Origin: an alpha proteobacterium SCGC AAA536-G10
GTDB taxonomy: Bacteria; Pseudomonadota; Alphaproteobacteria; Puniceispirillales; Marisalimonadaceae
Reading direction: 5' to 3'
DNA: 50,687 nucleotides
NCBI GenBank assembly: GCA_000384615.1
Contig: ARQU01000006.1
Span: forward strand, 71,876-122,562
Part shown: positions 1,011 through 2,524 of the stretch, piece by piece
Layout: every line of letters starts with the position of its first letter
How positions within the stretch are numbered: the first letter of the stretch is position 1
Made by a program: the position numbers and the translations under genes
The notes under the pieces: generated by a model
Seen by the model: only the letters and a program-made list of their open reading frames with translations
Told to the model about the DNA's origin: nothing
The model's database searches: none

Positions 1011-1066
1011 TCCTGATCAGGATCAATTATGTTGCAATTATGTTAAATGTTTCCATTTTGGAAACA
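1011..1066. promoter_or_regulatory. Inverted repeats in the 300-bp gap upstream of the DUF1127 gene
   Basis: The 869-1168 gap holds no convincing gene. It contains a perfect 12-bp palindrome TCCTGATCAGGA at 1011-1022 and a 7-bp inverted repeat TGTTTCC/GGAAACA with a 5-bp spacer at 1048-1066. A further small hairpin GAAGGA-ATAA-TCCTTC lies at 1126-1141, just ahead of the DUF1127 start. These are possible operators or a terminator remnant between divergent genes. No promoter matched confidently. Confidence 0.3.
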
Positions 1067-1168
1067 ATCATTTTCCATTTACCTATGTTCTCTTTATTAC
1101 TTGTTTGTCGTATATGATTATTAATGAAGGAATAATCCTTCTTACTTTTAGAAAGAAAACAAACGACG

Positions 1169-1423: not shown

Positions 1424-1435
1424 AGATTTAAAGAA

Positions 1436-1569
1436 TTAATATTCGTTCCTCCTCCCTCGAATATTGATTAAAGATGATGACATAGCTTAGAACTCAATCC
1501 TCCCCCAAGGTAGTTATTATGTCATCTGAAAAAGCAAGGACGAAGGACCCCCATCCTTCGTCCTTTTTA
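1436..1569 (+). ncRNA. Cuckoo/CcsR-like sRNA region in the 3' UTR of the DUF1127 gene
   Basis: Two hairpins follow the DUF1127 stop. Hairpin 1 (1436-1467) has a 10-bp stem (one G-T pair) and a 12-base loop containing CCTCCTCCC at 1448-1456. Hairpin 2 has a perfect 9-bp outer stem, GATGACATA (1476-1484) with TATGTCATC (1518-1526), and exposes a CCTCCCCC run at 1499-1506. An intrinsic terminator closes the unit. In Rhodobacter and relatives, CCUCCUCCC-loop RNAs downstream of DUF1127 genes are processed from the shared transcript and act in stress responses, probably by anti-Shine-Dalgarno-like pairing. Family membership is by motif and position; it was not run through a covariance model. Confidence 0.7.
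1536..1569 (+). terminator. Strong Rho-independent terminator of the DUF1127/sRNA unit
   Basis: A perfect 12-bp stem, AAGGACGAAGGA (1536-1547) with TCCTTCGTCCTT (1554-1565), and a 6-base CCCCCA loop are followed directly by a short T-run. It ends the DUF1127-sRNA transcript and insulates the following permease gene. Confidence 0.9.
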
Positions 1570-1633: not shown

Positions 1634-2524
1634 ATGTCAAATTTAATTCAAAAACATTTAAATCTAAATCTTTCTAATACAATTCTAGGTACGCTACTAC
1701 TTGTATTAACTTATTTGTTTTTTTCAATAATGGAACTAACAGCGAAAGAGTTAGGGCAAAGCTTTAACCCTTTTCAGGTAGTATTTGCAAGGTACCTATC
1801 TCAATTAATAATTTTAATAATAATATTTAATAAGAATTCCAAAATACATCTTATGAGCGAGTATCCACTATTACAAGTCTTAAGAGGAGCATTACTCCTA
1901 ATTACTACTTGTTTTATGTTTACAGGTTTGGCTTATCTACCTTTTGCAGAGAACATTGCCATTTATATGATAGGACCAGTAATTACTACAATTTTAGCAT
2001 TTTTTATTTTAAAAGAGAAAATCTCTTTTCTTCAAATTATTGTCGTTATTATTGGATTGATTGGCGCAATAATAATAGCAAATCCAAATAGCCAGTCATT
2101 TAATTACGCAGTTATATTTCCCTTTTTAGCAGCTTTATGTTTTTCTTTTTTTACTATATCAACAAAATTTCTTAATTCATCTGATACTAATCAGACCACC
2201 CTTTTATTTACTGCCATAACTGGTACATTTTTATCAGCCCCATTTATTATTTATTTTTGGAAATGGCCTGATTTTTATCAAACCATTCTTATGCTCTGCT
2301 TAGGTTTATTAGCAACAATTGGTCATTTTTTATTTATAGAAGCTTTAAAAGTAATTAGTGCCTCTTTTGCAGCACCATTTGTATATTTAACTGTACTATT
2401 AGCAGCTTTTTGGGGTTATCTTATTTATAATGAAGTTCCAAATCAGAACACTATAATTGGAGCTTTTCTTATTGTAACTGCAGGATTAATAATTACTCAA
2501 TTAAAAAAAAGAGTTAGAAAATAA
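1634..2524 (+). CDS. EamA/DMT family transporter
   Basis: This 296-residue, very hydrophobic protein has about ten membrane segments in two repeated halves, the EamA/RhaT drug-metabolite transporter fold. Features include SIMELTAKEL near the start, FNPFQVVFARYL in helix 2, and the conserved middle motif FFILKEKISFLQIIVVIIGLIG; the C-terminal half repeats it with YNEVPNQNTIIGAFLIVTAG. Such proteins export or import small metabolites across the inner membrane; the substrate cannot be told. It starts with ATG and has a weak Shine-Dalgarno. It lies 31 bp ahead of an AEC permease on the same strand. Confidence 0.85.
   Translation: MSNLIQKHLNLNLSNTILGTLLLVLTYLFFSIMELTAKELGQSFNPFQVVFARYLSQLIILIIIFNKNSKIHLMSEYPLLQVLRGALLLITTCFMFTGLAYLPFAENIAIYMIGPVITTILAFFILKEKISFLQIIVVIIGLIGAIIIANPNSQSFNYAVIFPFLAALCFSFFTISTKFLNSSDTNQTTLLFTAITGTFLSAPFIIYFWKWPDFYQTILMLCLGLLATIGHFLFIEALKVISASFAAPFVYLTVLLAAFWGYLIYNEVPNQNTIIGAFLIVTAGLIITQLKKRVRK

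Follow-up and report, generated by a model that had tools for sequence, protein, structure and literature searches.

In R. sphaeroides the ccaF1 gene is described as being co-transcribed with the CcsR RNAs under an RpoHI/RpoHII promoter, and maturation of these RNAs involves RNase E together with CcaF1 (PMC10253847, PMC8625941, PMC8307010). In rhizobia, CCUCCUCCC loops are reported as anti-Shine–Dalgarno (anti-SD) motifs, with targets that include transporter mRNAs (PMC3927594, PMC7143759, PMC10746234). The number of hairpins in the cuckoo RNAs is given as two in SmelC201 and RSs0680a, and three and four in SmelA075/A099 (PMC3927594).

The locus considered here lies within a stretch of 50,687 nucleotides (the window) from the alphaproteobacterium SCGC AAA536-G10 (contig ARQU01000006.1, positions 71,876 to 122,562 of the forward strand). 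It is probably of the CIN1 type, with one promoter, a DUF1127 mRNA and a 3' UTR that is a terminator-closed, two-hairpin CcsR-like RNA from which small RNAs able to pair with ribosome-binding sites would be released. The source genome (G000; 2.16 Mb in 148 contigs, 90% complete) has a GC content of 30.7% in its sampled part, in agreement with the 30.55% reported for the low-GC SAR116 subclade of families AAA536-G10 and GCA-002684696 (PMC8547437); the host is thus read as a low-GC SAR116 type, and its family presumably falls within this subclade. The nearest 20 relatives of the DUF1127 protein from named genomes are 66–94% identical to it, and 16 of them carry a SAR116 cluster label, the other 4, including that of SCGC AAA536-K22, being labelled as alphaproteobacterium only.

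Anatomy of the cassette

Table 1. Features of the cassette and its downstream neighbour, in window coordinates
Feature	Position	Strand	Basis or remark
Conserved block upstream of DUF1127 gene	1048..1094	+	alignment of 15 upstream regions
Leader hairpin GAAGGA-AUAA-UCCUUC (GAAGGAAUAAUCCUUC), then TTACTTTT	1126..1141	+	28 nt 5' of start codon
DUF1127 protein, 84 aa	1169..1423	+	PF06568, 30.3 bits, cut-off 23.3, residues 24-47
Hairpin 1, loop CCUCCUCCC at 1448-1456	1434..1469	+	sequence, fold, alignment
Hairpin 2, CCUCCCCC at 1499-1506, possibly capped by AGG (1508-1510)	1476..1526	+	sequence, fold, alignment
Intrinsic terminator, 12-bp stem (1536-1565) then T-run	1536..1569	+	fold and terminator scan
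EamA-family transporter, locus 1 marker, outside cassette	1634..2524	+	domain search, tblastn

The DUF1127 gene stands directly upstream of the hairpins on the same strand. The first-pass annotation had placed the array after this gene, and the terminator that it had placed 3' of the hairpins is seen both in the fold and in a separate scan. The annotation had also described an exact loop on a 10-bp stem for the first hairpin. The loop is where it was said to be, with CCTCCTCCC lying inside the larger loop UUCCUCCUCCCU, but the stem is of 12 bp by fold, formed by 1434-1445 with 1458-1469 and including one internal G-U pair. The second hairpin has a 10-bp stem (1476-1485 with 1517-1526), and its motif, CCTCCCCC, is indeed at the position given; the claim that this motif is exposed is uncertain, as weak pairs (AACU/AGUU and CCU/AGG) are predicted inside the hairpin. 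The locus therefore has the adjacent hairpins of a cuckoo RNA, which number two to four, and it carries CCUCCUCCC, expected in every cuckoo loop, in hairpin 1 and not in hairpin 2.

The bare CCTCCTCCC motif occurs at chance level and it is its placement in a long stem that is beyond chance. Allowing at most one mismatch, there are 5 copies in the window against 2.65 expected, and the genome holds 7 exact copies compared with 9 of a reversed control pattern. When the C-rich motif is required to sit in a loop closed by 9 bp or more of stem, the window contains one such hairpin (two overlapping motif positions) against 0.06 expected per random window, and the same is seen in 19/20000 random UTRs of similar composition generated by a first-order Markov model. 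The 157-nt stretch is more stable than 200/200 dinucleotide shuffles (z -4.68).

The conserved upstream block, which is likely to be the promoter/operator as predicted from its sequence, contains an inverted repeat, TGTTTCCATTTTGGAAACA (1048-1066), an extra TTTCCA half-site and a -10-like CTATGT (1083-1088). The half-site series TTTCCA/TGGAAA/TTTCCA stands just 5' of the -10-like CTATRT and is strongly kept in the window, in L002 and in relatives, and the block has the same or nearly the same sequence in a second cassette of G000. A single TTTCCA.TTTGGAAA is present in 850 kb of G000 (a sample without the second cassette's contig stretch), at the window cassette, and for this reason the block is perhaps a cassette-specific operator. 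A sigma-70 scan returned 3 weak sites against 5.0 expected; a clean RpoD or RpoH match was not established in the block, which fits no sigma consensus tried. The leader hairpin scored as terminator-like in the terminator scan and is present in most relatives of the upstream alignment, being partly broken in L009, L011 and L026. A DUF1127 gene of S. meliloti is reported to be under leader attenuation (PMC12218461), and by analogy the leader hairpin of the window may have a parallel role.

Conservation, distribution and the two loci

Within the genus, an alignment of 18 rows from 17 genomes (139 columns) has standard pairs in 99.4% of 630 pair cells, a value that 0/500 shuffles equal, as is also the case for the covariation score; relatedness among the rows may contribute to this excess. 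Both-side changes of a pair number 2, equalled in 119/500 shuffles; for pair types the count is equalled in 497/500. With 5 more rows, one of them from the sister genus G064, there are 3 both-side-changed pairs, reached in 14/500 shuffles, and pair types remain unexceptional (165/500). The scarcity of both-side changes and the pair types lying within the shuffles count against the CIN1-type reading. Across the 18 rows the terminator stem has 11/12 pairs invariant, and hairpin 1 has a constant core, UCCUCCC, the full motif being altered in L011, L013, L015 and L016; in AG-337-O15 one CCU unit is missing. Hairpin 2 has the core UCCU(C)CCC, with AAGG directly after it in 17/18 rows, and its loop is CCUCCCC(C) in 18/18. 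The second hairpin had been called a divergent second copy: a variant loop it has, fixed as CCUCCCC in the genus, and descent from hairpin 1 is conjectural.

A covariance model of the array, R1, gave full-length matches at 22 places in 20/40 genus genomes; G030, which matches at the terminator end only, is outside these 20, and weak opposite-strand matches coincide with the same places. DUF1127 is present in 18/37 genus genomes searched (G062 and G063 were outside that search), and in all 18/18 the array is present with the gene directly upstream on the same strand. In a family-wide search 20/57 genomes match, G064 being the only one beyond the genus. The strongest evidence of conservation comes from outside the genus. 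In G064 both hairpins are kept and the inner stem of hairpin 1 is rebuilt as CCUGC/GCAGG. In G066, a member of a third genus, a single canonical hairpin with CCCUCCUCCCC, its loop being AACCCUCCUCCCC, on an unrelated stem, lies 3' of the DUF1127 gene, with an EamA-like frame downstream. The proposal that a unit of DUF1127 and CCUCCUCCC-loop RNA exists in this AT-rich lineage is thus supported, with loops and stems kept, linkage to DUF1127, and stem changes that preserve pairing. Conserved loops and a few compensatory stem changes in neighbouring genomes are the opposite of what, as regards stems and loops, the first-pass annotation had said would refute it.

More widely, the comparison covered the 3' regions of 28 DUF1127 loci from other genera of the order: 12/28 contain TCCTCCC or CCTCCTC within 200 nt (0.036 expected per locus), and 5 of those 12 have it in a stem of 6 bp or longer (0.009 expected); the 16/28 without the motif weigh against the CIN1-type reading. 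In a sample of the class, DUF1127 is present in 77/192 genomes. Of the sample's 30 best-scoring loci, 4 pass, with 0.059 and 0.023 expected, and the 26 that lack the motif are again adverse. The 24 loci of DUF1127 relatives beyond SAR116 from a protein scan (L052-L075) showed no array when scanned for it, and L064 has an unpaired motif. Within the SAR116 order, L028 (G043) has strong hairpins of 11 and 13 bp, with the loops CCUCCUCC and CCUCCUCCC, behind DUF1127; it sits in a single-contig genome and so offers a cleaner member for experiments.

A search with CcsR/cuckoo covariance models, recommended as a check in the first-pass annotation, did not reach the Rfam cut-offs for CcsR1 or ar14, a result that is held against the CIN1-type reading. 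There are 0 Rfam matches at the gathering threshold in the whole window; the best sub-threshold match, on the array, is to ar14 (RF02344, cut-off 58.8) at 17.6 bits and E 0.18, and CcsR1 (RF02791, cut-off 65.3) has no match at E ≤10. As a control, the class member L130 (G130), from another family, has six hairpins behind its DUF1127 gene, five of them with exact CCUCCUCCC, and scores 52.0 of 65.3 bits with CcsR1 (E 2.7e-10) and 52.4 of 58.8 with ar14. Because this canonical array also falls below both cut-offs, albeit with strong E-values, the models miss good members and their failure is weak evidence against membership.

In the other 20 genus genomes, those lacking a full match, the apparent absence of the cassette looks like an assembly break at near-identical repeats. 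The EamA flank was located in 10 of them and the cupin flank of the second locus in 12, making 13 genomes together, with neither in 7; in 10/10 and 12/12, respectively, the contig ends at the side of the flank that faces the cassette. The EamA start is at most 24 nt from the contig end in 9/10 (G030: 122), and the cupin start is at most 12 nt from it, or cut, in 10/12 (G009: 66; G030: 118). In genomes with one assembled cassette the other locus may be at a contig end too, as in G022 and G063 (EamA) and G001 (cupin), so that all 25/25 flanks located without a cassette are contig ends; this is what the reading as assembly breaks is based upon, and an empty, cassette-free site is not found among the 25. 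The two broken contigs of G030 have a common 77-nt end within the array, of the sort left where a k-mer assembler meets a repeat. A single-cell workflow described in the literature removes 100 bp at the ends of contigs (PMC5519541), which would place the ends just outside the repeat, and it was presumably used for these genomes. Patchy loss was considered for the 20 genomes and set aside because each flank located without a cassette ends its contig.

The cassette is present at two loci and its copies do not evolve independently. By tblastn the gene order is ExbB-DUF1127-EamA at locus 1, that of the window, and MFS-DUF1127-cupin at locus 2, which in G000 is on contig 2. The whole unit is about 570 bp from promoter to terminator, and the two G000 copies are similar from about 170 nt before the ATG through to the terminator end and dissimilar outside. 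Identity is complete over 80 nt of promoter and leader and again over the initial 80 nt of the array, with several differing sites in the coding part. In G064 both loci also exist, agreeing across the comparable 71 nt, at a contig start. The G006 assembly (L207, G006:C3; named twin L049, AG-911-J10) has MFS upstream and EamA downstream of the cassette, which is either a misjoin or a real rearrangement between the repeats. This hybrid, which had carried an EamA label in earlier trees, was left out of the main tree of 22 cassettes. In a separate sequence comparison the row L018 (33/65) is probably misplaced and is disregarded. Locus labels were checked by tblastn, and those set by hand for L202, L203 and L019 agree (L019 by its upstream neighbour only).

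On this tree the labels are scattered, with 6 changes against a shuffled mean of 6.1-6.2, and forcing the EamA copies together is rejected by 262 log-likelihood units (AU p 0.00017; p 1e-101 with the hybrid included). Branches are mostly weak, with 12/19 open, and a genome's own two copies are sisters in G000 (91/83) and not in G024. An old duplication and recurrent gene conversion would account for this most simply; repeated transfer between the loci may be an alternative. The cupin gene beside the second cassette has one in-frame stop in L260 (G000:C2), L254 (G026:C9) and L261 (G001:C7), either by decay or by sequencing error.

Mechanism, targets and rival explanations

In the CIN1-type reading, a single promoter would drive the DUF1127 mRNA, the two-hairpin CcsR-like RNA being its 3' UTR, closed by the terminator. 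RNase E, aided by the DUF1127 protein, would free small RNAs from this 3' UTR, and their CU-rich loops would pair with GGAGG-type ribosome-binding sites, lowering the translation or stability of the bound mRNAs under stress or nutrient change; these later steps are modelled on R. sphaeroides and S. meliloti. By this analogy the most likely products are 3'-UTR-derived small RNAs whose loops pair to strong SD sites. Leaders with GGAGG, to which the loops are complementary, do occur in the genome.

With gene starts chosen without reference to the SD, GGAGG is found ahead of 12/422 starts in one sample and 9/351 in a second, together 21/773; with such a site at under 3% of the genes sampled, few direct targets would be expected. 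They perhaps include transporter binding proteins, and several GGAGG proteins of sample 1 look like substrate-binding proteins by their N-termini. Exported-like proteins, a label given by the author's own rule, make up 7/12 GGAGG genes in sample 1 (p 2.7e-5) and 3/9 in sample 2 (p 0.085), and in a wider SD set 11/39 (p 4.4e-4) and 3/26 (p 0.64). The transporter idea was formed on sample 1, where it holds, and tested on sample 2, where it holds weakly and the enrichment is above 0.05; it is thus a lead only, and the second result speaks against the CIN1-type reading. So does the genome scan, which placed no exact GGGAGGAGG match at any start codon. The genome has 7 exact CCTCCTCCC sites, of which the cassettes account for 2; each of the remaining 5 falls within a complementary-strand open frame of 229 codons or more and has no start codon in the 16 nt after it. 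TCCTCCTCC has 20 sites, the 2 cassettes and 18 others. One of the latter, L160, has GGAGGAGGA 6 nt before an ATG and may be internal, since it is inside a 320-codon open frame. The coding-site motif L155 also folds as a hairpin.

It is unlikely that the hairpins act in cis only, as binding sites for the DUF1127 protein or an RNase that set the stability of their own mRNA without any trans-acting small RNA. Such a role fits with the array always being behind DUF1127 where checked, and with CcaF1 acting on its own ccaF1-CcsR transcript (PMC10253847), but it is the SD-complementary loop that is kept while the stems change between genera, and the R. sphaeroides and S. meliloti relatives are reported to act in trans (PMC10253847, PMC7143759). 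Very unlikely is a general ribosome or translation decoy, an RNA resembling the 3' terminus of 16S rRNA that would sequester strong SD sites as a class instead of acting on selected mRNAs. The CCUCC in the loops would suit such a decoy, whose class effect would be narrow given how few sampled ribosome-binding sites have GGAGG; the loops, however, run past CCUCC (UUCCUCCUCCC, AUCCUCCCC) and are conserved there too.

That these are chance hairpins beside a terminator, or a functionless repeat element, is barely credible: the chance-level occurrence of the bare motif is set against the pairing excess that no shuffle equals, the 3 both-side changes of the extended alignment, the full-length array in half of the genus genomes, the G066 hairpin on its unrelated stem, the rarity of such hairpins in random UTRs and the motif at 12/28 order loci. 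The CIN1-type reading is preferred. A bolder version of it, conceivable though unlikely, is that the two unlinked, mutually homogenised cassettes of this streamlined ocean clade, each running from promoter to terminator, constitute one dosage-coupled riboregulator, in which an open anti-SD loop and a self-capped loop throttle a few strong-SD mRNAs, chiefly for nutrient-uptake binding proteins.

Relationship to known systems

As far as literature searches go, a locus of this kind is already known, but its occurrence in this lineage, the second hairpin fixed as CCUCCCC and the presence of two loci are new; among the matches listed in open-licence PMC full texts, SAR116 was not found together with DUF1127, cuckoo or CcsR. 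The unit of DUF1127 and anti-SD RNA is extended to a low-GC, streamlined marine group in which strong SD sites are rare, and this rarity makes the ribosome-binding-site blocking model sharply testable. Low-GC SAR116 genomes are described as having short intergenic spacers (PMC8547437), and the fact that a regulatory-RNA cassette seems to be homogenised between two loci in them suggests selection on sequence or dose. There is also a warning, in that such an RNA may seem to be missing from single-cell genomes through an assembly break.

The AbcR sRNAs are similar in having CU-rich anti-SD motifs and transporter mRNAs as targets, and no DUF1127 link is described for them in the source consulted (PMC7143759). 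They differ in having three stem loops, their own genes, Hfq binding and partial suhB homology. Closer in form are the Rhizobiales cuckoo RNAs ar14/NfeR1 and SmelA075/SmelA099, which share adjacent hairpins, variable stems and anti-SD loops (PMC3927594, PMC10746234), but those have three or four hairpins, all of which bear CCUCCUCCC, and NfeR1 is a trans-encoded sRNA with its own promoter rather than a DUF1127 3' UTR. The ccaF1-CcsR1-4 operon of R. sphaeroides, a CIN1 locus, has a DUF1127 gene, CCUCCUCCC-loop hairpins and a terminator, as here (PMC10253847). In place of its four CcsR RNAs there are two hairpins here, the second with a CCUCCCC loop. The promoter block also differs and, whereas one such CIN1 locus is known in R. 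sphaeroides, the cassette described here occupies two.
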